Positions 1,194-56,065 of a stretch of 64,000 nucleotides of DNA are shown one piece after another. This DNA is from Spirochaetales bacterium (GTDB lineage: Bacteria; Spirochaetota; Spirochaetia; UBA9216): the NCBI GenBank assembly GCA_016839055.1, contig JAEKNX010000005.1, positions 186,001-250,000 of the forward strand, given 5' to 3'. Under the pieces are notes generated by a model that did not search any database, was not told where the DNA came from, and saw only the letters and a program-made list of their open reading frames with translations. Every line of letters starts with the position of its first letter. Within the stretch, counting starts at the first letter, position 1. Both the position numbers and the translations under genes were made by a program.

Positions 1194-1255
1194 GAATCGA
1201 CCATAAATGTAATGATGGTCAATCAGTGGGGCTCTGCCCCGCTGTTAATATATTG

Positions 1256-1292
1256 AGCCGCTGAAGGGGAACCCCGACAGCGGCTTTTTTTT
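1256..1292 (+). terminator. Rho-independent terminator after the binding-protein gene
   Basis: Perfect 8-bp stem AGCCGCTG/CAGCGGCT (1256-1263 with 1278-1285) closing on a GGGG/CCCC inner stem, followed by a run of eight T. It lies about 60 bases after the stop codon. Confidence 0.9.
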
Positions 1293-1296
1293 AATA

Positions 1297-1428
1297 TTAC
1301 CAGCCGCGGGGGGGCATGGCAGGGCAGCGTTTTAAGAGGATTTTAGAAAAACGTTTGCGAAGTTCCGGATTTATTTCTTCCTCTCCGAATATCTTCATAG
1401 TCTGTACATCTGTGAACCGCATCTTCAT
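1297..1428 (-). pseudogene. 43-codon reading frame, possible remnant
   Basis: An uninterrupted ATG-to-TAA frame of 43 codons reads MKMRFTDVQTMKIF at its start and is rich in charged residues. No ribosome-binding site precedes it and I recognise no family. It contains a copy (1408-1420) of the ATCCGTGAACCGC-like word also found twice near 13.8 kb. Chance or decayed coding sequence are both possible. Confidence 0.2.
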
Positions 1429-1489
1429 CAGTTTGAATTTTGATTCTGCTTATAATGACAACACAACGAACGATATTATGCACGCTCTA

Positions 1490-1716
1490 TTTTAAAGGTT
1501 TTTAGTAATTATAAAAAAAAAGCTCTCCCGCCCGGGGAGAACTTCTTTAATCTGAGGCTTAATTTCAAATTCTTTCTTAATCCAGGCTGCAATAAAAACC
1601 GCCGCATCTTTCTCATTGCCTCCGGTTTTAAGTCGGATGACCGAATTTATCTGTACGATCTTCTAAGTAAGAGCTGTCAGCTCATCCTTGTCGGCAGGAG
1701 ATAGAAGTTTTTCTTT
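1490..1716 (-). pseudogene. Degraded coding stretch beyond panE
   Basis: Directly after the panE stop the minus strand reads in one frame with a single in-frame TAG near 1661. The codons give protein-like sequence on both sides (LSPADKDELTALT, then KIVQINSVIRLKTGGNEKD and AAVFIAAWIKKEFE). There is no start codon. This looks like the C-terminal part of a decayed gene, but I do not recognise the family. With the 43-codon frame downstream, it accounts for the gap between the first gene and panE. Confidence 0.25.
1513..1540 (-). terminator. Minus-strand terminator downstream of panE
   Basis: Stem TCTCCC/GGGAGA (1524-1529 with 1535-1540) followed on the minus strand by a run of nine T (plus-strand A run 1513-1521). 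It would end the acetate kinase/peptidase/panE transcript. Confidence 0.7.
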
Positions 1717-1717
1717 A

Positions 1718-2650
1718 CTATCGCTTAGTATTCTTTCTTGCCAGGTCAATTGTTTTTACAAGGGCCGCAATGGTTTTATTTATGGGGACTGCAACACCGA
1801 GTCTATCGGCTTCCCGGACGATGGCGTTGTTTATAAAGTCTATCTCGGTAATGCTGCCGCGGTCGAAGTCTTGAAGCATGGAGGAACGGTTGAGGCCTGT
1901 TTTCTCTGCTACCGAATAAACAACTGAGAGAGGATCATCATAGGTTAGTTTTATACCACCCTTATCACAGACAGCGACAGCTTCGGCCACCAGGTCTTTC
2001 ATCATTTCTTTGGTTTCAGAGAAATCAAGCAGCTGGCCGTTCGTGAGTCCTGTAAGAGCCGTCAGGGCATTGATGCCGACGTTGATAACGAGTTTGCTCC
2101 ATACAAGGCTTTCAATATCATTCTCGGCCTCGGTCTCGAAACCTGCCTTTCGTAGCTCTTCGATGAAGGGTTTGAGCTTATCATTGTTTTTATCGGACAT
2201 ACAAAGGTGGGTAGGACCGTTTCCTGCGTGCCTAATATGGCCGGGACCGGCGAAGGTCGCGCCCTGTGATGTGACACCGGCAGCAGTATTAGACGCGCCG
2301 AAATGATTTTTAAGTATTTCTTCGTTGCCGAGTCCGTTCTGAAGCGTGAGGATAATAGTGTTTTCGCCCGCGAGGGCTTTGAAATTTGATGCAACTATAT
2401 CGGTGGCAGTCGATTTGACAAAAACGATGAATATGTCGGATCCTTTGACCGCTTCCGGCTTATCTGAGGCTGCGGGATTGACTATACTGACATCTCCGGT
2501 AGCAAGTGTTTCAATTTTTAGACCGTTGGTATTTACCGCCGCGACATGTTCTTTGTTAATATCATAAAGAACGACTTCATTTCCGCAGGCGGCAAGTTTT
2601 CCTCCAAAGAGGGATCCCATAGCTCCAGCGCCGATTATGGATATTTTCAT
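1718..2650 (-). CDS. panE: 2-dehydropantoate 2-reductase (ketopantoate reductase)
   Basis: A 310-residue PanE/ApbA family enzyme, normal family length, that reduces ketopantoate to pantoate with NADPH. The N-terminal Rossmann fingerprint IIGAGAMGSLFGGKL is at residues 4-18. The central LTLQNGLGN and the LVINVGINALTALTG segment, with the family's catalytic lysine in VWSKLVINVG, are typical of PanE. An AGGAG ribosome-binding site lies about 6 bases before the ATG. It is last in a minus-strand run after acetate kinase and the P1 peptidase. panB, the preceding pathway step, starts 2.6 kb away on the other strand, which supports the pantothenate assignment over other ApbA-fold reductases. Confidence 0.85.
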   Translation of the reverse strand: MKISIIGAGAMGSLFGGKLAACGNEVVLYDINKEHVAAVNTNGLKIETLATGDVSIVNPAASDKPEAVKGSDIFIVFVKSTATDIVASNFKALAGENTIILTLQNGLGNEEILKNHFGASNTAAGVTSQGATFAGPGHIRHAGNGPTHLCMSDKNNDKLKPFIEELRKAGFETEAENDIESLVWSKLVINVGINALTALTGLTNGQLLDFSETKEMMKDLVAEAVAVCDKGGIKLTYDDPLSVVYSVAEKTGLNRSSMLQDFDRGSITEIDFINNAIVREADRLGVAVPINKTIAALVKTIDLARKNTKR

Positions 2651-2668
2651 TAAGTACTCCTATAAAAT

Positions 2669-2758
2669 CCCGCCATCCGTGGCGGGTTGATGAATGGAAG
2701 TTTGGAAGCAAAGCTTCCAAACTTCATGATACAATTGAATATGGATGTTCAATTGTAT
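2669..2758. repeat. Three consecutive perfect hairpins between peptidase gene and panE
   Basis: Inverted repeats: CCCGCC/GGCGGG (2669-2686), a 13-bp stem (2697-2709 with 2713-2725, 3-nt loop) and an 11-bp stem (2729-2739 with 2748-2758, 8-nt loop). None is followed by a T run, so they look like mRNA processing or stability structures in the intercistronic gap rather than terminators. Confidence 0.7.
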
Positions 2759-2771
2759 TACTCCTGTCTAA

Positions 2772-3725
2772 TTATTCTCCGGCGTAGCCGGGTACTCCAT
2801 ATGCTGTTTTGGCAGCTTTAATTCCTGCTATAATTGCCATTGACATAACTTCAGCGGCCATGCTTCCAATAACTGTTAAATCGGCTTCAATATCACCTGT
2901 TGACATACAGAATACTGAGTCGCCGTCATACATTGTATGAATTGGGTTGATGGCCCTCGCATAACCGTCGTGAGTCATTTTCGCGACCTTTGTTGCCTGT
3001 GGTTTTGTCAGGCGTGCGTTAGTGGCAATTACACCAATAGTTGTGTTGCTCTTTATAGGATTTATCCCGTTTAGAGACTGTTTGAGATAGCTTAGCGTTC
3101 CCTGGAACTCGGAGCCTTCTTCGGGCCTGGTTCCCGCTATGATTTTGCCGGTTTTCTCGTCGATGATATCTCCAAAACAGTTGACGGCAACAATGGCGCC
3201 GAGAACTACATCGCCGACGGTTAGGCTTGCGGTTCCGATTCCGCCCTTCATTAGGCCGGCAGGTCCCCGTCCTTTTCCAATTGTAGCGCCGGTGCCGGCA
3301 CCAACGTTGCCCATCGAGCATTCAGTGGCTGTAGCGTTTAGACATGCCTGGTAGCCCATCTCAGCATCAGGCCGAATAGAGTAACTTGCAATTGGAAGGT
3401 CGAAAAGGACAGCGCCTGGAACAATAGGTACAATGCCCACTCCCACATCGAGGCCTTTACCGTTTTCTTCACACCAGCGCATTACACCGTCGGCGCCGGC
3501 TAGTCCGTAGGCGCTTCCGCCTCCCAGGTAAACGGCATTAATTGTTTGAACGAGGTTTATTGGGTTAAGGGCATCCGTTTCCCGGGTTCCGGGTCCGCCG
3601 CCCGCGACATCAACACCGGCTGCTGCAGGCTCTACAGCGATAATTACTGTGCAACCGGTTCCGCCTTCGGTATTTTGAGCATGGCCTACAAGTATTCCAG
3701 GTACATCACAAATTGAATTTATCAT
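2772..3725 (-). CDS. P1-family peptidase (DmpA/NylC-like Ntn hydrolase)
   Basis: A 317-residue member of the S58/P1 family of self-cleaving N-terminal-nucleophile hydrolases, which act on D- or beta-aminopeptides or cyclic amides. The predicted autocleavage site is Asn227-Thr228 in SNTTIGVIATNA, matching the NTT/GNS junction of the family and giving large and small subunits. Other family segments are IVGHAQNTEGGTGCTVI near the start and the glycine-rich GGGSAYGLAGADG at 68-80. An AGGAG lies 6 bases before the ATG. There is no signal peptide, so it acts in the cytoplasm. The natural substrate is unknown. It sits 15 bases after acetate kinase in the same operon. Confidence 0.8.
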   Translation of the reverse strand: MINSICDVPGILVGHAQNTEGGTGCTVIIAVEPAAAGVDVAGGGPGTRETDALNPINLVQTINAVYLGGGSAYGLAGADGVMRWCEENGKGLDVGVGIVPIVPGAVLFDLPIASYSIRPDAEMGYQACLNATATECSMGNVGAGTGATIGKGRGPAGLMKGGIGTASLTVGDVVLGAIVAVNCFGDIIDEKTGKIIAGTRPEEGSEFQGTLSYLKQSLNGINPIKSNTTIGVIATNARLTKPQATKVAKMTHDGYARAINPIHTMYDGDSVFCMSTGDIEADLTVIGSMAAEVMSMAIIAGIKAAKTAYGVPGYAGE

Positions 3726-3740
3726 ATTTTCTCCTAAGTA

Positions 3741-4940
3741 TTACTGCTGGTTAACCAGCATGTTGGTTTCCATTGCAATCATCAGCTCCTCATCCGTAGG
3801 AAGGGTGAGAACCTTAACCCGGGAATCGGCGGCTGATATTATTGCCTCTCCCCTGCTGTTTTCATTTAAGTTTTTATCTAATTCTATTCCAAGAACCTCG
3901 AGTCCGTCGCAGATCATTTGCCTTATCAGGCTTGAGTTTTCTCCGATTCCGGCAGTAAAAATAAGAGCGTCCATCCTTCCGCGAAGAGAGGCGGCAAGAG
4001 CACAGACATAACGCCTGATTGATCTTGAAAAAATGTTCAGGGCCAGGACTGCTCGTTCATTGCCGGTTCTGGAACTGCTGATAATATCACGGATATCGCT
4101 TGAAATGCCGCTTATTCCCAGAAGTCCGGATTTTTTATAGATTAGCTCTTTAACCTCTTCAGGCGTCATCCCCTCACGCATGATTAGCTGAAGAATTATT
4201 TCAGGGTCTACGTCTCCGGACCTCGTTCCCATAGGTACTCCGCACACCGTGCCGTAACCCACTGAGGTATCTACTCCGACGCATCCGATTGATGCGGCAA
4301 GTGATACTCCTCCGCCTATGTGACAGCTTACAGCACGAAAGTCGTCACGATGTGCGCCGCAGAGCTTGGCGGCCCTTATATTTACGTATTGGTGTGATGC
4401 TCCGTGAAATCCGAACTTGCGGTATCCCCAATTCTCATAGCAGCCGTAGTCGAGGGCGTAGAGATAGGCTTCTTTTTCCATTCCGCTATAGTATGCAGTA
4501 TCGAATGAAACAGTATGCGGGATATCCGGAAGCAGTTCACGTACGGCCCTTATTCCAAGAAGGCCGGCCGGATTATGAAGGGGCGCGAGGCCTACGTTAT
4601 CCTCAATTTTTTTCTCTACCTCTGAAGTAATAAGCTCGGGTTTTGTAAGAGTAGATCCGCCGTGAACAATTCGGTGGCCTACTGCGTTAATTTCAGAAAG
4701 ACTGTCGAGAACCCCTGTTTTCGGAGCTGTTACCTGTTTCAGCGCGATATCGATTGCTGTTTTATGGTCGGGAATTGAGGTGTTGATACTGATTTCTTCA
4801 TTTTTATCAGCCTGAAAGGAGACGGCCCCATCTATGCCTATTCTTTCTACCAAACCTTTACAAAGGGTACGTTTAGTTTTCATATCAAAGATCTGAAACT
4901 TCATTGAAGTGCTTCCGCTGTTAATTACAAGAATGTTCAA
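3741..4940 (-). CDS. ackA: Acetate kinase
   Basis: A 399-residue ASKHA-fold kinase converting acetyl phosphate and ADP to acetate and ATP. Signatures in order: NILVINSGSTSMKFQ at the N terminus (phosphate loop), AVGHRIVHGG, SFDTAYY, HGASHQYV, CHIGGGVSLA, and GTRSGDVDP near the middle. Propionate or butyrate use cannot be excluded. The start is a TTG at 4938-4940 with GGAGG seven bases upstream; no ATG fits the conserved N terminus better. No phosphotransacetylase gene is adjacent. It is first in the minus-strand operon with the P1 peptidase and panE. Confidence 0.9.
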   Translation of the reverse strand: MNILVINSGSTSMKFQIFDMKTKRTLCKGLVERIGIDGAVSFQADKNEEISINTSIPDHKTAIDIALKQVTAPKTGVLDSLSEINAVGHRIVHGGSTLTKPELITSEVEKKIEDNVGLAPLHNPAGLLGIRAVRELLPDIPHTVSFDTAYYSGMEKEAYLYALDYGCYENWGYRKFGFHGASHQYVNIRAAKLCGAHRDDFRAVSCHIGGGVSLAASIGCVGVDTSVGYGTVCGVPMGTRSGDVDPEIILQLIMREGMTPEEVKELIYKKSGLLGISGISSDIRDIISSSRTGNERAVLALNIFSRSIRRYVCALAASLRGRMDALIFTAGIGENSSLIRQMICDGLEVLGIELDKNLNENSRGEAIISAADSRVKVLTLPTDEELMIAMETNMLVNQQ

Positions 4941-5239
4941 TAAACGCCTCCGGATGATAGTAATTTATTTTAGCTGTATATCTTTGTCAACAGAACAAAA
5001 TATGATTCTTTATATTGTTAAAATATCAGAAAATAGGTTATAGTAATAGCGTCTAAATTGATATATACTGAGCTTGTTCCAAAAATAGTTAATTTGAAAC
5101 AAACTCATGAAGTGTTTTGATGACATTAAAGTTGCTTATAATGCAACTCCGTCGTTAAAAAACTTCTTCAGTCTATAAAGAGAAAATAATAAATATTATT
5201 ATTTCTTTATTAGCCAAAACAATTTTACAGGAGAAATAA
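4941..5239. promoter_or_regulatory. Divergent ackA/panB intergenic region with a candidate panB promoter
   Basis: AT-rich 299-base divergent gap. A consensus -10 box TATAAT lies at 5137-5142 with a weak -35 TTTTGA at 5115-5120 (16-base spacer) pointing to panB, which would leave an untranslated leader of about 90 bases. I see no convincing operator or riboswitch and no gene. Confidence 0.35.
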
Positions 5240-6106
5240 ATGAGTTCACATCCCGAAGCAACAAAAAAACTTCTATCAGCCGATCTTCAGAAGATGAAGG
5301 ACAACGGCGAAAAAATCTCAATGATTACAGCTTATTCCTACCCACAGGGTCTCATTGTTGATGAAGCAGGCATCGATATTATTCTTGTAGGTGATTCACT
5401 TGGAATGGTAGAGCTTGGTTATCAGGACACAGTTCCGGTAACAATGGACGAAATGCTGATGCACACCAAGGCTGTGGTAAGGGCAGTAAAGAGAGCGCAC
5501 ATTGTCGGCGACCTTCCTTTCATGTCCTACAATATTTCAACTGAGCAGGCTGTTACAAATGCAGGTATTCTCTATAAAGACGGTGGTTCCGACTCCGTTA
5601 AGTTTGAAGGCGGACAGGATTACGCCAGCGTTGCAGGTGCAATTACCCGCGCAGGAATCCCATTTTTCGCACACATCGGCCTCACACCTCAGACAGCTGC
5701 CATGATGGGCGGGTTTAAGGTTCAGGGCAAGTCACTTGACGATGCAAAGGCTGTTCTCGATGATGCTCTTGCAATGCAGGATGCCGGTGCCTTCGCCGTC
5801 ATTCTCGAAGCTATTCCCCAGCAGCTTGCTGCTATCATTACTGAAAAACTCACAATTCCTACTGTCGGTATCGGCGGCGGACCTGATTGTGCAGGCCAGG
5901 TACTGGTTCTTCATGACATGCTCGGACTCTTTCAGAGATTTACTCCGAAGTTTGTTAAGGTTTATGCTGATATGTACACAGCTCAGTGTAATGCTGTTAA
6001 AGAATTTGTCTCAGACGTTAAAGAAGTTAAGTTTCCGGCTGCCGAGCACAGCTTCAATATGAAGGCTGACGCGGTTGAAGAACTGAAGAAAGCTCTGGGA
6101 CTTTAA
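5240..6106 (+). CDS. panB: 3-methyl-2-oxobutanoate hydroxymethyltransferase
   Basis: A 288-residue PanB that transfers a hydroxymethyl group from 5,10-methylene-tetrahydrofolate to ketoisovalerate, the first committed step of pantothenate synthesis. Clear family motifs: MITAYSYPQ, the metal-binding GDSLGMVELGY, TVPVTMDEMLMHTKAV, SVKFEGG, and FAHIGLTPQ. An AGGAG lies 7 bases before the ATG. The stop is separated from folD by a single base, so the two are certainly co-transcribed. This fits chemically: FolD handles the folate one-carbon pool that PanB draws from. Cytoplasmic. Confidence 0.95.
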   Translation: MSSHPEATKKLLSADLQKMKDNGEKISMITAYSYPQGLIVDEAGIDIILVGDSLGMVELGYQDTVPVTMDEMLMHTKAVVRAVKRAHIVGDLPFMSYNISTEQAVTNAGILYKDGGSDSVKFEGGQDYASVAGAITRAGIPFFAHIGLTPQTAAMMGGFKVQGKSLDDAKAVLDDALAMQDAGAFAVILEAIPQQLAAIITEKLTIPTVGIGGGPDCAGQVLVLHDMLGLFQRFTPKFVKVYADMYTAQCNAVKEFVSDVKEVKFPAAEHSFNMKADAVEELKKALGL

Positions 6107-6107
6107 G

Positions 6108-7016
6108 ATGTCCGCGACTCTTATCAATGGTTCGGTGATTCGGGAAGAAATTCTTTCCGAACTCCGGGCCGAGACAGAGAAGCTGAAGGCTGAGTACGGA
6201 AAGGTACCCGGCCTGGTTACGATTCTCGTCGGTGAGAATCCGGCCTCGATGTCTTACGTCACTTTAAAGATCAAGACGGCCCAAAGCCTCGGTTATAACG
6301 AGGTTCAGGACAGTCGGCCGCCTGATATGAGTGAGGAGGATCTGCTTTCCCTCATTGATAGGTATAATAAGGATGATTCGATCAACGGCATCCTCGTGCA
6401 GCTTCCGCTGCCGAAACACATCGATGAGAAGAAAGTTCTTAACGCCATTGACCCGGACAAGGACGTCGATGGTTTTCATCCTGTGAATGTAGGCCGGCTT
6501 ATGATTGGCGGAGACGAGGTTAAGTTTCCTCCCTGTACGCCTGCAGCCATTCAGGAGATGATTATCCGGGCCGGAGTAGAGACAAAAGGTGCCGAAGTCG
6601 TGGTTGTAGGGCGGTCGAACATTGTTGGAAAGCCTATCGCGATCATGATGATGCAGAAGGGGCCGGGGGCTAATGCCACGGTAACCGTTGTACATACCGG
6701 ATCTAAGAATCTTGATGCGCATTGTCTGCGTGCCGACATTCTCATTGTTGCTGCCGGTGTTCCGGGGCTTGTTAAGCCTGAGTGGATTAAACCGGGGGCT
6801 TGCGTCATCGACGTAGGCGTGAACCGCATTGGTGAGAAGATAAGCAAGAAAACCGGTAAGACTATTGCAATCCTAAGCGGTGATGTTGACTTCGAGCCGG
6901 CTTGCGAGAGGGCGGGGTTTATTACTCCTGTTCCCGGCGGGGTCGGTCCAATGACCATCACAATGCTTATGAAGAATACGCTTAAGTCTTTCAAGTACAG
7001 CCTCGGACTTCTCTAA
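6108..7016 (+). CDS. folD: Methylenetetrahydrofolate dehydrogenase / methenyltetrahydrofolate cyclohydrolase
   Basis: A 302-residue bifunctional FolD interconverting 5,10-methylene-, methenyl- and 10-formyl-tetrahydrofolate. Visible signatures: SYVTLKIKTAQSLGY with the catalytic lysine of the cyclohydrolase site, the substrate strip GILVQLPLPKHID followed by DKDVDGFHPVN, the nucleotide-binding VVVGRSNIVGKP, and the C-terminal PGGVGPMTITMLM. Normal length. The start overlaps the panB translation stop region (one-base gap), implying translational coupling. A Rho-independent terminator follows within 30 bases, closing the panB-folD operon. Confidence 0.95.
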   Translation: MSATLINGSVIREEILSELRAETEKLKAEYGKVPGLVTILVGENPASMSYVTLKIKTAQSLGYNEVQDSRPPDMSEEDLLSLIDRYNKDDSINGILVQLPLPKHIDEKKVLNAIDPDKDVDGFHPVNVGRLMIGGDEVKFPPCTPAAIQEMIIRAGVETKGAEVVVVGRSNIVGKPIAIMMMQKGPGANATVTVVHTGSKNLDAHCLRADILIVAAGVPGLVKPEWIKPGACVIDVGVNRIGEKISKKTGKTIAILSGDVDFEPACERAGFITPVPGGVGPMTITMLMKNTLKSFKYSLGLL

Positions 7017-46289: not shown

Positions 46290-46458
46290 GGTTCTCCGTT
46301 TTTCGGATGATACTCTCATCGGTTGAGACAGTTGTCCATACTTGAACCCTGAACGAAAATAAGAAACTTTATTATATGACATAATTCTGCCATATTTTCT
46401 CATTAAAGTATTAATACAGCCTGAGACACTCAGGTGAAAAATGATGAGGAGACAAAAA

Positions 46459-46989
46459 ATGAAAATGATTAAGAATGGTATTATGATAGCGGCATTCTTA
46501 CTGATTGTTCCGATGGTTCTTACAGCAATGGGCAACAGTGAGAAAGCTTACGGCGAGGTTCTTGATGAAGAATTCACAGCCATAGTGGAAGCGCTTGAGG
46601 CGGGAGATCTTGATATGAAGACTGCGGTCGAACAGCTTCATGATCTGCGGACTGAGAATGACAGAGAAAACATTGATGATTATCAGATAATGGAAAAACT
46701 GATGGCTGAGGTACAGAACCGTGAAATGACAGCAACTCAGGCAAGGGTTCAGTTTTGTGAACTCAGCGAAAGTGAAACAGACCTCACCGAATTACAGCTT
46801 AGAACCCGGACAAGAACTATGGATCAAATAAGAATACAGGATGCTTCAGGTGACCAGGTTAGAGAAGGTGAATCCGGATCAGGAAATGGGTCTGGTTCCG
46901 GGACTGGGAAAGATACCTCCGGCCAGCCTGATAAGGGGACTCCAGAAAAAGCGGGCGGCAGTGCGGACAATTCTAACGGTAAAAATTAA
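46459..46989 (+). CDS. Exported protein, paralogue 1 upstream of a two-component system
   Basis: A 176-residue protein from the ATG at 46459 (GAGGAG 7 bases upstream; an ATG at 46441 overlaps that site). The signal peptide ends near LTAMG. A helical middle section (EQLHDLRTENDRENIDDYQ, NREMTATQARVQF) is followed by a Gly/Ser-rich, disordered tail. It shares the TAMGxSE junction, the LHDLR motif and the helical pattern with the next gene product, so the pair arose by duplication. No known family. Confidence 0.6.
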   Translation: MKMIKNGIMIAAFLLIVPMVLTAMGNSEKAYGEVLDEEFTAIVEALEAGDLDMKTAVEQLHDLRTENDRENIDDYQIMEKLMAEVQNREMTATQARVQFCELSESETDLTELQLRTRTRTMDQIRIQDASGDQVREGESGSGNGSGSGTGKDTSGQPDKGTPEKAGGSADNSNGKN

Positions 46990-47096
46990 TATTTATTAGC
47001 ATAAAGCCGCTTCACCAAGTGAATTGCTATTGATATAAACGGGGTGTATACTAATGTATGCATCCCATATTAACAAAGCGAGGTTATGGAACAATT

Positions 47097-47897
47097 ATGA
47101 AAATGCTTAAACTTAGTCCTATACTGATGTTTTTGTTTATGATATTCATCCTGACCGGCAATTTAACAGCTATGGGAGCCAGCGAGGGCTCTCATGCCTA
47201 TGAGTCTGCGCTTAAACAGGTTTTTGATGAGCTAATTGATGGCATTTACAACAGTGAAACCCAAGCCGTTTCGGCAAAAATAAAGCTCCATGATCTGCGC
47301 GATAAATATGATATTTCTTACACCGATGAAGCTGGTATTCTCGACGCGATAATTGATCGTGCACAAGAGCAGTCATTAACACGTGATGAGGCTCAATTCT
47401 TTTTCCAGCTTTTGCAGGAAGGAAAACTGATGGAGTACAGAAAGGAAGCATCCAGAAAGAGATCTGAACTGCATCACAGGGAGCTTTTGTCTCTGCTCAG
47501 GCAGAAGCTCGAATCTTCAAGCTCGCAGGAAGGCAGTGTTAGCGGCCTTTTGCCTATCCTTAATAATTACTATAATTTTGTAGGCCTTGAGTATGATAAG
47601 GAATATTCAAGCCTCAGCAGCCTGATTATTTCCCTTGAAAACGGCAGTATTACGGCCGGAGATATGATGAGTAATCTCAGTTCAATGGATCAGCAGTTGA
47701 GTAACAATAGTAATCGGGAAAATACTCCAGGCAGTAATGAGCGGATTAATCAAATAAATGCTCAGCAATCTATTGAAAACGGCAGTCAGCAGGGCTCAGA
47801 GGGCGGGGCCTCGCAGCCGACTGAAGGTCCGCATTCTTCAGGAGCGGGCGAACAGAAGCCGCAGGGCGGCGGTATGAACGCGAACTCCCGAAAATAA
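47097..47897 (+). CDS. Exported protein, paralogue 2 upstream of a two-component system
   Basis: A 266-residue protein from the ATG at 47097 (GAGGTTATGG upstream; the open frame starts 13 codons earlier without a ribosome-binding site). It has a signal peptide to about LTAMG, then a helical region with KLHDLRDKYD and SLTRDEAQFFFQL matching the previous protein. A second helical part and a Gly/Ser/Gln-rich tail follow. It lies 12 bases before the response regulator gene. A periplasmic accessory or sensor partner of the kinase, in the manner of CpxP, is a guess from position. Confidence 0.6.
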   Translation: MKMLKLSPILMFLFMIFILTGNLTAMGASEGSHAYESALKQVFDELIDGIYNSETQAVSAKIKLHDLRDKYDISYTDEAGILDAIIDRAQEQSLTRDEAQFFFQLLQEGKLMEYRKEASRKRSELHHRELLSLLRQKLESSSSQEGSVSGLLPILNNYYNFVGLEYDKEYSSLSSLIISLENGSITAGDMMSNLSSMDQQLSNNSNRENTPGSNERINQINAQQSIENGSQQGSEGGASQPTEGPHSSGAGEQKPQGGGMNANSRK

Positions 47898-47909
47898 GGC
47901 AGCAAGATA

Positions 47910-48587
47910 TTGAATGCAACTATACTGATAGTCGAGGATGAAGCCCGGAGTGCAAAGTGGCTCAAAACCTATCTCGAACGCGCGGGCTTTTGTGCCGAAA
48001 TAGCCTATGACGGACAAACCGGACTTAACATTGCCCGCAGGATAAATCCTGATCTCATCCTGCTTGATCTGATGCTTCCTGTTTTAAGCGGCACTGAAGT
48101 ATGCCGTATCCTCCGTAAAGAATCCGATGTACCGATTATTATGCTCACAGCAAGGGGCAGCATGGAGGACCGGATAAACGGTCTTGACGGCGGTGCTGAT
48201 GATTACATAGTCAAGCCATTTGAACCCGAGGAAGTAATTGTCAGAATAAAAGCGGTACTAAGAAGAACCATGGGAACTATGAAGAAAAAACTGACTTGCG
48301 GACCTATCAGCATAGAGGAAGAGAAGGAAACTGTTTTCATAGGAGAGCAGCCAATCTCTCTGAGCCATGTCCAGTTTGCGATTTTCCTCGTTTTCATCAA
48401 GAACCCCGGAGTCGTACTGACACGAGGGCAGATTATTGAACAGGCATTTGATAACGATTTCGATGCTTATGAACGCGCCATTGATACTCATATCCGCAGA
48501 TTACGGAAACTTATACACAGAAACGGTTTCGAGCCTATTCAGACAGTTTACGGCGGGGGATATAAACTGGTATGCGCTTCTCTATAA
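47910..48587 (+). CDS. OmpR/PhoB-family response regulator
   Basis: A 225-residue regulator: receiver with Asp53 (LILLDLMLPVLSG), acidic pair VEDEA, Lys in VKPF, and a C-terminal winged helix (AIDTHIRRLRKLI, VYGGGYKL). The start is TTG at 47910. It overlaps the kinase gene by 16 bases, so the two are a coupled pair. Its targets are probably the preceding exported-protein genes. Confidence 0.85.
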   Translation: MNATILIVEDEARSAKWLKTYLERAGFCAEIAYDGQTGLNIARRINPDLILLDLMLPVLSGTEVCRILRKESDVPIIMLTARGSMEDRINGLDGGADDYIVKPFEPEEVIVRIKAVLRRTMGTMKKKLTCGPISIEEEKETVFIGEQPISLSHVQFAIFLVFIKNPGVVLTRGQIIEQAFDNDFDAYERAIDTHIRRLRKLIHRNGFEPIQTVYGGGYKLVCASL

Positions 48588-49948
48588 AATCAATCTACTT
48601 TCAGGTGCTCATCTCATTTATTCTGATTATTTTTTTCACTCTTGCGATCAGTACGATTATCGAATATCATACATACTCTTCGCAGCTGCCAATACTTTTT
48701 ACAGAAATTAGAACAAAAACTATTGCTCAGAATCTCAGCTCTGCCTATACAAGGGACAATGGCTGGGACAACCTCGATCTTGAAATACAGCGGATCAGCA
48801 ATCTTGATAGTCTGAATACCCTGGATGAATCAACTCAAAGAATCATTGTTCGGGATAGTGACGGGAAAACTATTTATAATAGCTTTCTTAATATCATCCG
48901 GATTGAAAACATTGTTCTGGTAGAAGGTGAATCTCAGTTCATTATCGACTTTAAAACTTCCAAGGCCGTGGGAATTGTCACTGTTTATATCAGTCAGGAC
49001 TATCTGCTTAAGCATGCTCATGCCTATATCATAGAGCTGTTGAAATCCGGAATTTATAAAGGACTTATTACCGCGGGCATTGCCTTTATTCTAAGTCTCC
49101 TGTTTTCCCGCCGAATTACACGTCCGGTAATTCGGCTGACTGAGGCCGCGCAATCTATTGACGTCGGCGGTGAAAGTAATAAGATTTCAATTACATCATC
49201 TGACGAACTCGGGCGATTAAGCAGCGCGTTTAACTCCATGATTACGTCCCTCAATAGTCAGAGAAAACTCAGAAAGAAACTTCTTACGGATGTCTCTCAT
49301 CAAATCAATACCCCGCTTAACGCCATTCGGCTTGAAGCGAGAGGTCTGTCAGACGGACTTGTATCGGCTGAGGAGGCTAGTCATTTTATAATTGCTGAAG
49401 TCGATTCCCTTAGGAACATCATTTACGATCTGGACTGGCTGGCCGAAACCGATTCTGGAGTCTACACCTTAAATAAGGTGGAATATCAGCTCACTAGGCT
49501 GATTGATGAGGAAGTTAGACGCTGGGTTCATAAGGCTGAAGCACAGAAATTAAAGCTGATAATAACCGAAAATTCTGATAAACTGCCTCCGGTTCTCATA
49601 GATGTTATAAGGATTAGCACTGTTATAGGAAACCTGATAGATAATGCCATGAAGTATTCGACTGAAGGCGGACAAATTAATATAGGATGTTCTCTTGATA
49701 ATTATCAGTTGATTGTTTCAGTATGTGACGATGGCCCCGCGATTGCACCGGAGCATAGATCTCATATATTTGAACGTTTTTATCGTATAAAAAAAAGTGA
49801 TAAGCCTGATATACCCGGGCGGGGGCTTGGCCTTTCAATAGTAAAGCAGATTGTGGAGTTACATAAAGGTCGAATCTGGCTTGAATGCGGAGAAGAGAAG
49901 GGGAATTGCTTCTTTTTTTCCCTGCCGGTTAAGATTCTTATCTCATAA
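48572..49948 (+). CDS. Membrane sensor histidine kinase with unusual H-box
   Basis: A 458-residue kinase: membrane helices at about 8-28 and 160-178 around a periplasmic domain of about 130 residues, a HAMP linker (RRITRPVIRLTEAAQSI), HisKA, and a HATPase with GNLIDNAMKYS, CDDGPAI and GRGLGLSIV. The phospho-acceptor region reads DVSHQINTPLNA with His243 followed by Gln, where most HisKA kinases have Glu or Asp. That residue helps catalyse phosphotransfer and dephosphorylation, so the kinase/phosphatase balance may differ. Its partner is the upstream regulator. Confidence 0.85.
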   Translation: MRFSIKSIYFQVLISFILIIFFTLAISTIIEYHTYSSQLPILFTEIRTKTIAQNLSSAYTRDNGWDNLDLEIQRISNLDSLNTLDESTQRIIVRDSDGKTIYNSFLNIIRIENIVLVEGESQFIIDFKTSKAVGIVTVYISQDYLLKHAHAYIIELLKSGIYKGLITAGIAFILSLLFSRRITRPVIRLTEAAQSIDVGGESNKISITSSDELGRLSSAFNSMITSLNSQRKLRKKLLTDVSHQINTPLNAIRLEARGLSDGLVSAEEASHFIIAEVDSLRNIIYDLDWLAETDSGVYTLNKVEYQLTRLIDEEVRRWVHKAEAQKLKLIITENSDKLPPVLIDVIRISTVIGNLIDNAMKYSTEGGQINIGCSLDNYQLIVSVCDDGPAIAPEHRSHIFERFYRIKKSDKPDIPGRGLGLSIVKQIVELHKGRIWLECGEEKGNCFFFSLPVKILIS

Positions 49949-50302: not shown

Positions 50303-50331
50303 TTGACAATCAGTAATATGATGTGTTAAAT
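50303..50331 (+). promoter_or_regulatory. Promoter of the importer/radical SAM operon
   Basis: TTGACA at 50303-50308, a 17-base spacer and TTAAAT at 50326-50331. Transcription would begin near 50338, leaving a leader of about 255 bases before the first start codon. Confidence 0.55.
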
Positions 50332-50342
50332 TACTGCTTGTA

Positions 50343-50500
50343 GATTCTCCGAACCGTTTTACCTAAGGATTTTATCTAAGGGAAGGCGGTCACTGTTTCG
50401 GACATAAACCGAACAAAAGGAATTACAGGAAACTGTAATTCCTCCCGTATTTGGAAAGGAGAAACTCGCCTGCACTGCCCAAAATCTCTAAGGCGGAATA
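50343..50500 (+). ncRNA. Candidate molybdenum/tungsten-cofactor (Moco/Tuco-like) riboswitch
   Basis: The long leader contains CTCCGAACCG, a perfect hairpin AGGAATTACAG/CTGTAATTCCT (50418-50441), CCTCCCGT, GGAAAGGAGAAACTCGCCT and AAAATCTCTAAGGCGG. The order of CCTCCCG, GGAAA, ACTCGCCT and AAAATCTC resembles what I recall of the Moco RNA motif. The genes downstream, a FecB/FecCD-type importer of the kind that includes MolBCA, would suit it. I could not run a covariance model, so the class is uncertain; a structured leader is well supported. Confidence 0.45.
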
Positions 50501-50592: not shown

Positions 50593-51684
50593 ATGAAAAA
50601 GAAGTTTTTTGCTTTTTTTTTGCTGGTATGTTTTCTAATGTTTTCTTCAAGTTTCATTTATTCAGCAGGAGCGCAGGAATCCGGGATAGATGAAAAAAAG
50701 ATTGAAAGTGAGAACGCCGGGAATGTAAATCAGTCTGAAACCCGGGTTATAAGGGATATGAGGGGCCGAAGTGTTGAAATCCCTGTAGAAATAAGCCGGG
50801 CAGCGAGTGTGTTTCCTTATGTTTCTTTTATAACCTTGGCGCTGGGCGGTGGAGATGTTCTTGTGGGTATAGATTCTTCGTCTACAGGAAATGAAAATCT
50901 TATGCGCACCTATCCGGAAATTAAGGATGTTCCTGCTATGGGAATGTTTTTCAATGTCAATCCGGAGAGCATTCTTGAGGCGGACCCTCAGGTTGTTTTT
51001 ACGGTGAATTGGGACAAGGATCCTGATAAAACACAAAGTCTGCTGAATGTGCCTGTAATATGTGTTGATCTTAACCTTTATAAAGAAAGTATTGAATTTT
51101 TGTCCGGTATTATCGGCGATTCTGCTGAATCAAGGGCCAACGAGCTAATCTCTTACTATGAAGAGAAAAAGGACCTTATAAAAAGAAGCATAAGTAAGGC
51201 CGATGTGAATGAACTAACAAAGGTTTATATTGCCGGCGGCAAGGGAATCCACTCAACCTATGGAAAGGAATCTACATGGCAATATGAAATAGCAGATGCC
51301 GGCGGAATTAATGTTGCAGCGGATGTATTCGGCGGAGGAGCTCAGGAAGTATCCTCGGAACAAATTATAATATGGGATCCTGAGGTAATTGTACTGGATC
51401 TATCTTGTCCGGATTCGGCTGAAGATATCCTGAATGATGAAATGTTTCAGGATCTTTCTGCAGTAAAAAGCGGAAGAATATATTACGCCCCAGCCGGTTT
51501 CCTTGATACTTTCGGTCGTCCGCATATGGAATCGGCCTTAGCCCGTTTATGGCTGGCCGATAAATTATATCCGGAGGAGATTAATATTAATATTACTGAT
51601 GAGGCAAAAGCGTTCTATTTGAAATTTTACGGTATAGAACTGTCGGATTCAGAAATAAGCATCATTCTTAATCCGAAAAAATAA
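50593..51684 (+). CDS. FecB/MolB-type metal-chelate or oxyanion binding lipoprotein
   Basis: A 363-residue class III binding protein with an N-terminal export signal (FFAFFLLVCFLMFSSSFIYSAG). Two lobes are joined by a long helix (SAESRANELISYYEEKKDLIKRS). Typical segments are DMRGRSVEIP, SFITLALGGGDVLVGID, ILEADPQVVF, IIIWDPEVIVLD and GRPHMESALARLWLADKLYP. The family carries siderophores, cobalamin, haem or molybdate/tungstate. The leader upstream makes molybdate or tungstate the favoured guess. AGGAG precedes the ATG. Permease and ATPase genes follow. Confidence 0.75.
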   Translation: MKKKFFAFFLLVCFLMFSSSFIYSAGAQESGIDEKKIESENAGNVNQSETRVIRDMRGRSVEIPVEISRAASVFPYVSFITLALGGGDVLVGIDSSSTGNENLMRTYPEIKDVPAMGMFFNVNPESILEADPQVVFTVNWDKDPDKTQSLLNVPVICVDLNLYKESIEFLSGIIGDSAESRANELISYYEEKKDLIKRSISKADVNELTKVYIAGGKGIHSTYGKESTWQYEIADAGGINVAADVFGGGAQEVSSEQIIIWDPEVIVLDLSCPDSAEDILNDEMFQDLSAVKSGRIYYAPAGFLDTFGRPHMESALARLWLADKLYPEEININITDEAKAFYLKFYGIELSDSEISIILNPKK

Positions 51685-51725
51685 TCTACTCTCCGGTAAG
51701 GTGCAGCAGATTATAGAGTATTTTA

Positions 51726-51757
51726 AAAACCCGGTTAGTGAAAACTAACCGGGTTTT
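51726..51757 (+). terminator. Strong hairpin inside the importer operon
   Basis: Perfect 13-bp stem AAAACCCGGTTAG/CTAACCGGGTTTT (51726-51738 with 51745-51757) ending in TTTT, located between binding-protein and permease genes. It can act as a partial terminator, favouring binding-protein expression. Confidence 0.75.
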
Positions 51758-51800: not shown

Positions 51801-51953
51801 GTGAATTTAAATAGATATTCAAAAATTTTTATCATTGCTTTTTTTGTTTCAACCTCTGCGGTATTCGCAGCTTACCCGAGGAGCATCCTGCTTAACTGGG
51901 ACCCTGATGTCATTATTCTGCTTAACGGAGCTGATATTGATGCTGGATTATAA
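51801..51953 (+). CDS. 50-residue exported minigene, probable binding-protein remnant
   Basis: Starts with GTG after GAGGATAAT. Residues 1-24 are a full signal peptide (FIIAFFVSTSAVFAA), followed by only 26 residues including NWDPDVIILLNGADID, which resembles the IIIWDPEVIVLDLS strand of the preceding binding protein. It looks like a second FecB-type gene that lost its middle by deletion, or a surviving micro-protein. It ends 5 bases before the permease start. Confidence 0.45.
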   Translation: MNLNRYSKIFIIAFFVSTSAVFAAYPRSILLNWDPDVIILLNGADIDAGL

Positions 51954-51958
51954 ATCTG

Positions 51959-52987
51959 ATGAATAATGACCAGGAATCCGATCGGAGATTCAACATAGTA
52001 GCGCTGTCTTTCGGCCTGCTACTTGTACTTCTTTTCATGGTATCGCTGTTTTCCGGCAGATATTCGATTCCTCCCGGGCTTATGTGTCGCGTGCTGCTTT
52101 CCAAAGTAATACATATTGATATGACATGGTCCAGGACTGTTGAAACGGTAATCTTTAATATAAGGCTTCCGAGAACAGTACTTGCGGCTCTGATAGGAGG
52201 AAGTCTTGCTGTCTGCGGGGCTTCTTTTCAGGGGATGTTCCAGAATCCTCTGGTCAGTCCGGACATCCTCGGCGTAACATCAGGGGCGGGATTCGGCGCG
52301 GCTTTGGCTATTCTGCTTTGGAACCAGGTTGCCTTGATACAGGCTTCTGCTTTTATTTTCGGCATACTTGCTGTTTTTATCGCTTATATAGTCAGCCGGG
52401 TATTCAGGCCTACTCCAACCCTGATGCTGGTTCTTTCCGGTATTATTGTAGGTTCCATTTTTTCAGCTCTTTTATCCCTGATAAAATATGTAGCAGATCC
52501 GAATCAGAAACTGCCGGCTATAGTTTTCTGGCTGATGGGGAGCCTCGCCGGAGTTTCCAAAAAGGAACTTGTAACCGTAGCAATTCCAATTCTTGTGGGG
52601 ACTGCAGGATTATTTCTTGTACGGTGGCTTATAAATATTCTATCCATGGGTGATGAGGAAGCCCATTCCATGGGAATCCGATCCGGCTCGCTAAAACTGT
52701 TTATTATCGTTTGTGCTACCATAGTTACGGCTTCTTCGGTAAGCGCCTGCGGCATTATCGGCTGGGTGGGGCTGGTTGTGCCTCATATTTGCCGCATGAT
52801 TATTGGTTCGAATCACACCCGCTTGATTCCTCTTTCGTTTCTTGGAGGAGGCTGTTTTCTGCTTGGAGTTGATACGATTGCCAGGACGGTGATTTCGGCC
52901 GAGATACCGCTGGGAATTCTTACAGCGCTTATCGGAGCGCCTTTCTTTGCCTTCTTACTCAGGAAAACAGGTGGCAAACCGGGATGA
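51959..52987 (+). CDS. FecCD-family importer permease
   Basis: A 342-residue type II importer permease with about ten helices. Motifs: FNIRLPRTVLAALIGGSLAVCG, FQNPLVSPDILGVTSGAGFGA, LVLSGIIVGS, and the cytoplasmic coupling segment IGWVGLVVPHICRMIIG. It dimerises to form the channel for the FecB-type binding protein. The ATG has no clear ribosome-binding site, so translation may be coupled to the minigene just upstream. The stop overlaps the ATPase start by 4 bases. Confidence 0.85.
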   Translation: MNNDQESDRRFNIVALSFGLLLVLLFMVSLFSGRYSIPPGLMCRVLLSKVIHIDMTWSRTVETVIFNIRLPRTVLAALIGGSLAVCGASFQGMFQNPLVSPDILGVTSGAGFGAALAILLWNQVALIQASAFIFGILAVFIAYIVSRVFRPTPTLMLVLSGIIVGSIFSALLSLIKYVADPNQKLPAIVFWLMGSLAGVSKKELVTVAIPILVGTAGLFLVRWLINILSMGDEEAHSMGIRSGSLKLFIIVCATIVTASSVSACGIIGWVGLVVPHICRMIIGSNHTRLIPLSFLGGGCFLLGVDTIARTVISAEIPLGILTALIGAPFFAFLLRKTGGKPG

Positions 52988-53844
52988 GTGGTACAGCTAT
53001 TGAATTATACGAAACAGCATTTTCCTACGGACAGAAACCTGTATTTACTGATGTATCCGGAAAGATAAACCGTGGAGAGGTCGTGTGTCTTCTCGGAGCA
53101 AACGGATGCGGTAAGACAACTTTAATGAAATGCATGAACGGACTACTGACATTTGGCAGCGGGAAAGCGTTCATTTTCGGGAAAGATTTATATTCTCTGA
53201 ACTCGAAGGATCTTGCAATGAAAAGTGCCTTTGTTTTTCAGGGATACTCACAGGTTTTCTCATATTCTGTTACCGACATTGTTCTCACCGGACGCGGCCC
53301 TCATCTTGGTTTTTTTTCTTTTCCGGGAAAAGCAGACAAACAAAAAGCTCTTTCAATACTGGAAAATATGCACATCAGCCATCTATCTTCAAGATATTTT
53401 CCTACCCTCAGCGGAGGAGAACAACAACTTATCATGATAGCCCGGGCATTGGCACAGGAACCCTCCATACTTTTTCTTGACGAGCCGGCTTCGGCGCTGG
53501 ATTTCGGGAATCAGCAGTATTTGTTAAGAACTATAAAGAGTTTGGCTGATGTATATGGAATAACAATAGTAATGTCGACCCATTATCCAAATCATGCATT
53601 GACGGTCGCAGATAAAATATGGGCCATGAAAGACGGCAGAATAATCAGTTCAGGTTCTCCTCTTGAAGTTCTGACTGAAGAAAATATTTATAAGCTTTAT
53701 AAAGTACCGGCCAGAGTGGTTGAAGTAAGGGAAAGCGGAATCAACTCTTTTGCTGTGATACCTCTTGATGATACAACCGGTGATAAAGAAGATTATTTCA
53801 TCCCCGCGGGAAAAGGTAAACAAAATGAGCAATGTAAGATGTAA
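52984..53844 (+). CDS. FecE/BtuD-type importer ATPase
   Basis: A 286-residue ABC ATPase: Walker A LLGANGCGKTTLMKC, Q-loop FVFQGYSQ, signature LSGGEQQLIMIARAL, Walker B ILFLDEPASALD, and H-loop STHYPNHAL. All catalytic residues are present. It powers the preceding permease. It overlaps the permease by 4 bases and the radical SAM gene by 20 bases, which ties the enzyme to the importer at translation level. Confidence 0.9.
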   Translation: MSGTAIELYETAFSYGQKPVFTDVSGKINRGEVVCLLGANGCGKTTLMKCMNGLLTFGSGKAFIFGKDLYSLNSKDLAMKSAFVFQGYSQVFSYSVTDIVLTGRGPHLGFFSFPGKADKQKALSILENMHISHLSSRYFPTLSGGEQQLIMIARALAQEPSILFLDEPASALDFGNQQYLLRTIKSLADVYGITIVMSTHYPNHALTVADKIWAMKDGRIISSGSPLEVLTEENIYKLYKVPARVVEVRESGINSFAVIPLDDTTGDKEDYFIPAGKGKQNEQCKM

Positions 53845-56065
53845 TTACTGTGAGAAGAAGTGCCTGTTGACAGAAAACGATTTCGGGTACTGCGGGATGT
53901 ACAGGGCGGAAAATGGAAGGGTGGTGGAAAGATTTCCTTTTCATTTTTCCAGTATCGGAGATTCATATATAGAAGGCATTCCCTTCTATCACGTACTTCC
54001 CGGGAGCAGAACTCTTGTTCTCGGAAGCTCAGGATGCAATATCGATTGCGCATATTGCTCCAACTCCTATGTTGCCAGATCGAAAGTGGAAGATACATTA
54101 CGCCTGTCTTATTCGCCTGAAGCAATAATCAGAATGGCAAAAGACGCGGATTGCCAGTCCATAACTTTTCCGATTAACGAGCCGGCTGTTATTCTACCGA
54201 CTGTTCTGGAAATGGCAAAGGAAGCGGCGAAGGCCGGAATCCCGACCGGAGTCCTTACAAACGGGCTGATGACCGAATCATCTGCATATGCACTGGCAGA
54301 GGCTGTGGATTTTATAAATGTGAGCATTAAAGCTGTCAGTAAAAACAGTATATCAGCCCTGCTCGGCTGGTATGATCTTGATGTGCTTTTCCGTAATATC
54401 TCGATATTTAATGATAACTCGCATCTGGAGTTGAGCACGCCAATTGTGCAGGGAGTAAATGATTCCGACATTCCGGCAATAGCAAGATTTATTTCAGATC
54501 TGGATAGAAGTATTCCGTGGCATGTTTTCCGATTGCTTCCGGAATATCGTATGTCGGATATGGATCGTCCTAACATCCAGAGGGTGGCCACCGCCATTGA
54601 GAAAGAAAAGAAGAATATTGACTATATATACTTCAGCAATTTCCTCGGATCATTATGGGTTGACACCCTCTGCCCGGATTGCGGGAAAAAGGTTATCGAG
54701 AGGATCAACTTCGGAGGCTGCAACGCTAAATGTGTAAACATGGATCTGGATTCAGGAGGGTGCCCTGTCTGCGGTAAAAATATTCCCATATATAAAAACA
54801 AATCAATTTCAGGCGAATATGATTCAGCGTATAATATGCAGAAGTCTTCTCCGGTAAAGCGTTCTGCTATAATCAATAATGATATAGCCGTTATTGATGT
54901 TATCGACTGGCAGGCCGATGTAGAGATGAAGACCGGTAAACTTCTTGATATTGAAGATAGCATTAACGGCAATGGGGCTGACAAGGCAAAAAAAATAATA
55001 TCAGAGATTAAATCTCATCTTAAGGAAAATCAGTATCCAGGAGATCTGAACGGCAATTCCTGTGAATGGATAACGAATAATGCTCTGGCAATAGATGAAA
55101 TATATAAGCCTGATTTCTTGTTTATTAATTACTGCGATATCTTTTTCAATACGGTCTTTTCTCCAGAGAACGATGATAAAATAGAAGAGATTCGAAAAAA
55201 GGTTTTCAATGAGGTTCGCAGGTTAATTGAAAATACTGATTATGAACCTGTAATAGTCGGCCTTGGCAATCTTTGTGATATTTCCGGAGAAATCACTTTA
55301 TCGGAAATAGACGCTCATATTGAAGCCTTTGGAATGTATTGTCAGTATGCGGGGGTGTTTTCTCCTTCGGAGGAGGCGCTTAAAAGTATTGAATCTATGC
55401 GCGGAATACGGAAGATGATCTCCAGGGAATCATTAGAGAATACTCGCGGCATTTCCTCTGATTTTATTGAAAGATGTCCTGATTATATTCTGTGCGCCGA
55501 AGAAGGATTCTATTTTCGGGGATACAGTACTGCCGCAAGACCTTTTTATAAACTACCTTCTCAGGATGAGAGTATTCCTGTTTCAGGGATAAAGAGCAGC
55601 GAGGTTAAAAATATTACCGATATAGCTCCATATATTCTTAATTCCCTTGAAAAGAAAAAGATCGCCTTGATTTTCATTGAGGGCCTGGGTACAAAGGATT
55701 TTCCGTATAAATCGATGAATATCGGCTCCTCACAGGATTGGTTTTATTATCCTCATAATAATGATATGTATTTATCAATACTCACGGGAGAACCGTTCAC
55801 CTCCAGGCCTTATCCTCCGGCAAACCAGGCTTATAAATATGACGGCTATGATTCTCCTTTTCCATATTCAGCCTATTATGAATACATCGAACCTGATTCC
55901 ATAGGAAGAAGATTTAAGGGGAAAAGCGCCTCTGTGGGCGGGAGAAGCGTGTTGACACATGTTGCCGCTGGAACAGACATAACAATAGAATGTTTCGCGC
56001 GGGCTCTTTACAATCATGGTACTATTGCGGTTATGAATGTAGATAAGCTTAAAAACTTGGATTAG
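53825..56065 (+). CDS. AmmeMemoRadiSam-type radical SAM enzyme fused to an unrecognised 400-residue domain
   Basis: A 746-residue protein from the ATG at 53825 (AAAAGG upstream, 20-base overlap with the ATPase gene). Residues 1-330 are a PflA-like radical SAM protein: N-terminal cysteines 6, 9, 13 and 23 (RCNYCEKKC, GYCGMYR), cluster motif Cys71-x3-Cys75-x2-Cys78 (GCNIDCAYCSNS), and two zinc-ribbon-like pairs (LCPDCGKK, GCPVCGKN) near 285-330. Residues 340-746 match no family I know; they contain PDFLFINYCDIFFNTVF and PVIVGLGNLCDISGEI. Fusion and importer linkage suggest it modifies a protein or cofactor dependent on the imported ligand. Confidence 0.75.
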   Translation: MSNVRCNYCEKKCLLTENDFGYCGMYRAENGRVVERFPFHFSSIGDSYIEGIPFYHVLPGSRTLVLGSSGCNIDCAYCSNSYVARSKVEDTLRLSYSPEAIIRMAKDADCQSITFPINEPAVILPTVLEMAKEAAKAGIPTGVLTNGLMTESSAYALAEAVDFINVSIKAVSKNSISALLGWYDLDVLFRNISIFNDNSHLELSTPIVQGVNDSDIPAIARFISDLDRSIPWHVFRLLPEYRMSDMDRPNIQRVATAIEKEKKNIDYIYFSNFLGSLWVDTLCPDCGKKVIERINFGGCNAKCVNMDLDSGGCPVCGKNIPIYKNKSISGEYDSAYNMQKSSPVKRSAIINNDIAVIDVIDWQADVEMKTGKLLDIEDSINGNGADKAKKIISEIKSHLKENQYPGDLNGNSCEWITNNALAIDEIYKPDFLFINYCDIFFNTVFSPENDDKIEEIRKKVFNEVRRLIENTDYEPVIVGLGNLCDISGEITLSEIDAHIEAFGMYCQYAGVFSPSEEALKSIESMRGIRKMISRESLENTRGISSDFIERCPDYILCAEEGFYFRGYSTAARPFYKLPSQDESIPVSGIKSSEVKNITDIAPYILNSLEKKKIALIFIEGLGTKDFPYKSMNIGSSQDWFYYPHNNDMYLSILTGEPFTSRPYPPANQAYKYDGYDSPFPYSAYYEYIEPDSIGRRFKGKSASVGGRSVLTHVAAGTDITIECFARALYNHGTIAVMNVDKLKNLD

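Follow-up and report, generated by a model that had tools for sequence, protein, structure and literature searches.

The window, a 64,000-nucleotide stretch of DNA from a Spirochaetales bacterium, carries on its forward strand an ABC importer operon and an open reading frame that joins a radical-SAM (rSAM) enzyme to a second large domain, referred to here as family X. The genes and control elements concerned are the following.

50303..50332, + strand: promoter-like sigma-70 site, TTGACA-18-TAAATT (10/12 consensus, TG ahead of the second hexamer)
50335-50478, + strand: Moco/Tuco (Molybdenum/Tungsten) riboswitch RF01055, P3 stem present (81.2 bits, gathering score 36, E 4e-18; Rfam)
50593..51684, + strand: fecB-type periplasmic substrate-binding protein (Peripla_BP_2, PF01497, E 6.7e-18)
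51721..51757, + strand: terminator-like 13-bp hairpin 3' of fecB, aaaacccggttagt-gaaa-actaaccgggtttt, with a short T run
51801..51953, + strand: probable remnant of a second fecB, ~50 codons (signal peptide and NWDPDVIIL motif, recognised by reading the sequence)
51959..52987, + strand: FecCD/BtuC-type permease (PF01032, E 1.9e-88)
52984..53844, + strand: importer ABC ATPase (ABC_tran, PF00005, E 9e-29)
53825-56065, + strand: rSAM-X fusion ORF, ATG start, 746 aa
53825..54832, + strand: radical-SAM domain, fusion residues 1-336 (PF04055, 58 bits; TIGR04337, 148 bits, cut-off 220)
54833..56062, + strand: family X domain, fusion residues 337-746 (full-length homologues in a 49-row alignment; family AlphaFold2 (AF2) model, pLDDT 91.6)

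The binding protein, permease and ATPase all score over the Pfam cut-offs of PF01497, PF01032 and PF00005, which identifies a FecBCD-type (type II) importer and confirms the FecB/FecCD system recognised in the earlier note, and the ORF coordinates bear out its claim that the fusion and ATPase genes overlap by exactly 20 bases. Two fecB genes are present in several relatives. The genes adjoining the window fusion encode importer, histidine kinase and regulator proteins; just 5' of the operon, at 46441-49948, two small secreted proteins are followed by an OmpR-type regulator and a histidine kinase.

The riboswitch begins just past the promoter-like site and ends 115 bases ahead of fecB, and its P3 stem reads UGUUUCGG...CCGAACA in the covariance alignment. 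Promoter-like sites of such quality are no commoner in the region than in shuffles, and it is the place of this one just 5' of the riboswitch that makes it a candidate promoter. Folding of the leader gave no strong structure signal (z -1.3). Given the hairpin after fecB, the riboswitch may act mainly on that gene, with read-through feeding the later ones; the fusion gene itself may be a candidate for riboswitch control.

According to Regulski et al. (PMC2408646), RF01055 copies with a P3 stem correlate with molybdenum and those without it with tungsten, and on this published correlation the window riboswitch would be the Moco and not the Tuco variant. P3 is absent from the copies inspected in six relatives' loci (L013, L016, L034, L036, L040 and L042). 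The window genome holds seven copies of RF01055, two of them bearing P3: that of the importer operon and one on contig C26 (L136). Copies lacking P3 lead TupABC, an aldehyde ferredoxin oxidoreductase (AOR) and a xanthine-dehydrogenase-like enzyme, and others of this kind lead purine genes and a cluster of substrate-binding and molybdopterin-binding proteins. One P3-less copy, at 323-439 of L138 (contig C33), lies ahead of apparent purine synthesis genes that were read as adenylosuccinate lyase, IMP dehydrogenase, adenylosuccinate synthetase and GMP synthase; the molybdopterin precursor is GTP.

On C26, the P3-bearing riboswitch (432-578) heads a stretch at 633-4001 that encodes a lipoprotein without annotation, followed by a TonB receptor. 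This receptor matches from end to end those next to X in L009 (28%, E 2e-89) and L011 (E 3e-67); other X-linked receptors match far more poorly. ModA has no match in the window genome (~97% complete), where the best ModB score is 107 against a cut-off of 182.6, and a ModABC system was thus not recognised. Given this pattern of regulation and the absence of ModA, the simplest reading would be that FecBCD and the C26 receptor import molybdenum, and TupABC tungsten. MolBCA-type importers of molybdenum or tungsten (Mo/W) belong to the FecCD family. The present system would share Mo/W uptake with MolBCA and with ModABC/TupABC, as the riboswitch and the missing ModA suggest, but differs from them in having a neighbouring or co-regulated TonB receptor and a cytosolic rSAM-X partner.

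Among relatives, RF01055 lies directly 5' of the X-bearing operon in L013, L016, L036, L039, L042 and L043, and in L015 it lies directly 5' of rSAM-X with no importer in between; more copies occur in L034, L040 and L126. Altogether, ~688 kb of relatives' loci contain 12 matches, where the density over 43 such genomes (176 matches in ~162 Mb) would predict ~0.75. In most X loci scanned there is no riboswitch at the operon. An ordinary importer of iron or cobalamin type, close to molybdenum genes by accident, would agree with FecB, FecCD and the ATPase best matching iron, haem and B12 families, as most of this superfamily does; we give this reading hardly any credence in view of the riboswitch heading both this operon and those of relatives (~16-fold enriched), the lack of ModA in the genome, and the Mod, MoeA and molybdopterin-binding neighbours found at X loci. 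As in the RF01055 regulon of Regulski et al. 2008 (PMC2408646), which is known to take in ModABC and genes of cofactor synthesis, the riboswitch stands before genes for transport and for the cofactor, but the pairing of FecBCD with rSAM-X is not among the targets named in the portion of that paper available to us.

The N-terminal part of the fusion belongs to the radical-SAM superfamily, with PF04055 matching residues 68-223 at 58.2 bits (Pfam cut-off 29.5) and a CX3CX2C motif (C71/C75/C78) conserved in 57 sequences, so that the ~330-residue rSAM region with complete cluster cysteines described earlier holds. Further cysteines conserved across the 57 relatives are C6, C9, C13, C23, C283, C286, C313 and C316. 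The highest-scoring NCBIfam model is AmmeMemoSam_rS (TIGR04337) at 147.7 bits, to which the rSAM part of a relative aligns over its full length (1-319 on 12-329 of 349). However, scores fall short of the cut-off of 220 in all six proteins tested (119-168 bits, the range set by the five relatives), and glycyl-radical activase models reach at most 50.6 bits against cut-offs of 131 and up. By its sequence, then, the enzyme is related to the AmmeMemoRadiSam protein but falls short of the family cut-off; the label AmmeMemoRadiSam/PflA-like in the earlier note stands as kinship with the AmmeMemo enzyme, not as membership of that family or of the activases. The adjoining partner also appears to differ, AMMECR1 and Memo in the known system and X here. 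In the rSAM tree, AmmeMemo rows are not cleanly separated from X-linked ones, as long branches come together there.

Family X (~395-410 residues) is a real conserved family, usually encoded by a gene of its own in relatives; in three other genomes of the same phylum, a stand-alone X of ~380 residues directly follows a separate rSAM gene beside FecBCD. Residues ~337-746 of the fusion have no Pfam match over cut-off and no NCBIfam or PDB sequence match, and other members of the family have no credible match in the same three collections. A Thiaminase-1 (Pfam) match in one of 34 members (E 0.02-0.06) was rejected as chance, and a weak X match in genome G206 proved false, the ORF reading as the flagellar switch protein FliM. 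A contig scan found 36 X loci in Bacillota, Desulfobacterota, Myxococcota-labelled bins, Spirochaetota and Actinomycetota, and whole-genome profile searches added further ones; in these profile searches X was rare, with matches in 15 of the 380 genomes from Sporomusa's class and 6 of the 395 from Geobacter's phylum. No description of the rSAM-X pair was found in the open-access literature searched.

Neighbourhoods were compared over 57 loci, or 52 distinct ones after five doubly fetched contigs had been removed by hand. The distinct loci belong to the Bacillota, Desulfobacterota, Spirochaetota and Actinomycetota. An rSAM gene lies directly 5' of X in 51 of the 52 (56/57 before deduplication), and FecCD is near X in 44, three of the eight loci without it being short contigs. 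Import and radical chemistry therefore belong together, as the earlier note had supposed, in a neighbourhood conserved across four phyla; the note had made its proposal depend on such conservation. It had also called for a survey of the same fusion beside FecCD importers; a second lineage with rSAM-X in a single ORF occurs in Desulfobacterota (L075-L077, wide loci L078-L080), but X is mostly a separate gene. As the Desulfobacterota fusions sit far from the window protein in the rSAM tree, the fusion probably arose twice, and two fusions combined with near-perfect adjacency suggest a single step in which both rSAM and X take part.

The step performed with X appears not to be tied to one importer, since five loci (L015, L028, L081, L085 and L127) carry X without FecCD within 17-19 kb. 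X follows ModABC in L014, lies beside ModA and ModB in L031, and in L085 (9796-10938) is part of a ModABC operon with no adjacent rSAM gene, the best rSAM relative in that genome being only 34% identical. MoeA genes are found near X in L028 (two) and L030, HTH-PBP regulators beside it in L081 and L085, and molybdopterin-binding-type proteins near it in L127. In L127, two proteins (747-2585 and 4602-6350) join a tetrapyrrole-methylase domain to a molybdopterin-binding-like region, close to an X operon that also has ExbB.

Accessory genes recur across the 52 loci: methyltransferases (21 loci), TonB receptors (18), FmdE and TrmO-like genes (16 each), ExbB (15) and DUF364 (11). One reading of these genes, which we consider rather unlikely, is that rSAM and X, with the methyltransferase, DUF364 and FmdE neighbours, make a secreted Mo/W chelator (a molybdophore) that is recaptured through a TonB receptor and FecBCD. 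The frequency of methyltransferase, FmdE and DUF364 genes and of TonB/ExbB genes at X loci agrees with it, as does the proposed part of DUF364 in the synthesis of pterin- or siderophore-like chelators (PMC2954201). However, comparison of the loci revealed no shared gene for a peptide synthetase, a precursor peptide or an exporter, MATE-like exporters being confined to L015 and L021, and the flanks of the window operon have none of the accessory genes. The DUF364/FmdE heavy-metal clusters of PMC2954201 share these genes with many X loci, but the available portion of that paper does not mention rSAM-X and the window operon is without DUF364 and FmdE genes. The occurrence of X with ModABC (L014, L085) and of rSAM-X alone behind a riboswitch (L015) makes a metal species or cofactor intermediate a likelier substrate than one particular chelator.

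A fold search, also called for in the earlier note, was possible with an AF2 model built from 49 relatives, with the Sporomusa ovata sequence as query and the window sequence in row 2 (pLDDT 91.6, pTM 0.92); it superseded a model from four sequences that was too poor (pLDDT 55). Foldseek against the PDB gave a single match below 0.001, ENPP6 (E 6.5e-4, prob 1.00, TM-score 0.32), followed by ENPP4 (E 0.019, prob 0.97, TM-score 0.26), the low TM-scores reflecting that just ~214 columns align; nothing significant was found among viral structures. By hhalign, X residues 41-214 align with the C-terminal half (195-398) of PF01663-type (type I phosphodiesterase) proteins from related genomes (E 4.7e-4), and residues 243-261 (VALILVEGVG) align weakly with their N-terminal VLVIILDGMG strand. 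Of 60 column shuffles, 59 scored 22.7 or less against the observed 37.9, and the remaining one, an aberrant 138 over 25 columns at the sequence end, was judged an artefact. With the two halves aligning in swapped order, model and alignments suggest that X is a circularly permuted fold of the alkaline-phosphatase/ENPP superfamily; in global hhalign comparisons the permuted order was better for one phosphodiesterase set and about equal for the other, giving no clear choice. Where the earlier note found a C-terminal part resembling nothing known, the lack of sequence matches stands, but the region is a conserved family and a candidate for an alkaline-phosphatase-like fold.

The superfamily's catalytic apparatus is apparently not retained. 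X has YAQQY and TGD where the phosphatases carry their NPD..H and DHG ligands, and with these D/H positions replaced, X is, as judged from the alignment, without the alkaline-phosphatase metal site, while it has new invariant H, E and C residues. New conserved positions, numbered as in the window fusion, are D358, W362, Q363, P405-G406-D407, W415, E619 and H712 and, in the C-terminal sequence ECFARNLxNQGxMAV, E722, C723, R726 and G732.

There are two further readings. The first, which we regard as quite improbable, takes rSAM as an activase that installs a radical or oxidised residue in X, for instance at the invariant C723 or G732, so that X itself would be the enzyme. Pyruvate formate-lyase activase and anaerobic sulfatase maturase (anSME) act on partners in this way, the sulfatases are members of the alkaline-phosphatase superfamily, and the strict 1:1 adjacency of rSAM and X, the two fusions, the resemblance of the rSAM domain to glycyl-radical activases and the invariant Cys and Gly close to the C terminus of X would all fit. 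But X was rejected both as a glycyl-radical enzyme, having no RVxGY-type motif, and as an anSME-type sulfatase, having no C-x-(P/A)-x-R at its conserved Cys (ECFAR), and every activase model scored far under its cut-off. The second, very unlikely in our estimation, is that the cell salvages a pterin cofactor intact (Moco, Tuco or a precursor), much as BtuB-BtuFCD takes up cobalamin, with rSAM-X remodelling the pterin. The BtuC-like permease, a riboswitch that senses the cofactor and a best fold match of X in a nucleotide-pyrophosphatase/phosphodiesterase family are in its favour, but Moco in its free form is highly unstable, and the metal ligands required for phosphodiester cleavage are missing from X.

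The link of the locus to Mo/W is, at the level of sequence, well supported, and the metal is named on account of the riboswitch at the head of this operon and those of relatives, the absence of ModA and the Mod, MoeA and molybdopterin-binding neighbours. On balance, we lean somewhat towards reading the locus as an uptake-and-processing module for molybdenum (tungsten in relatives), in which rSAM-X would work on the metal species once this had entered the cytosol. A molybdenum complex too large for porins would pass the outer membrane by way of a TonB-dependent receptor, whose gene lies elsewhere in the genome after a second Moco-type riboswitch, and FecBCD would then carry it across the inner membrane. 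In the cytosol rSAM and X, as one complex, would act on the metal species or its carrier, with X as the oxyanion- or ligand-binding partner and rSAM providing the radical step, and would yield a metal form usable by molybdopterin cofactor synthesis; plentiful Moco would lower expression through the riboswitch. The metal or cofactor maturation pathway raised in the earlier note is thus upheld as a metal/cofactor pathway that can be named as Mo/W, but "maturation" is a conjecture, and the chemistry assigned to rSAM-X here is our inference.

Folds of the alkaline-phosphatase type take tetrahedral oxyanions as ligands, and molybdate and tungstate are phosphate-like; by this analogy X could be a demetallated oxyanion binder, which we put forward as a hypothesis only, since the loss of the phosphatase metal ligands makes any ligand of X a guess. 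Tentatively, and with considerable doubt, X might represent a new class of cytosolic molybdate/tungstate-handling proteins, built on a permuted and demetallated alkaline-phosphatase fold, which together with rSAM would perform an undescribed radical step between uptake and cofactor synthesis.

Mo/W formate dehydrogenases and related enzymes are essential to anaerobes that live in syntrophy, reduce sulfate or metals, or are acetogens, and to our knowledge little is understood of how such organisms acquire these metals where sulfide ties them up. In the module, uptake through TonB/FecBCD, a riboswitch that senses the cofactor and the unexplained rSAM/X pair come together as a single system open to test, and a family so far without annotation gains its first functional lead; the presence of the module in cultured hosts (Sporomusa ovata, S. 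silvacetica and Syntrophomonas wolfei) makes such tests practical.

Several unusual gene arrangements were also seen at X loci. In L032 (10506-12242), an rSAM domain of related type is fused to a FecB-like binding domain with no obvious signal peptide, beside the X operon, and in L046 (7995-9070, on a contig shared with L082) the X gene is split in two by a frame change and stops. A single ORF in L038 (7995-10082) comprises X, a TrmO-like (TsaA) and an FmdE-like region, and a separate TrmO-FmdE protein is encoded near X in Sporomusa (L019, 10954-11781).
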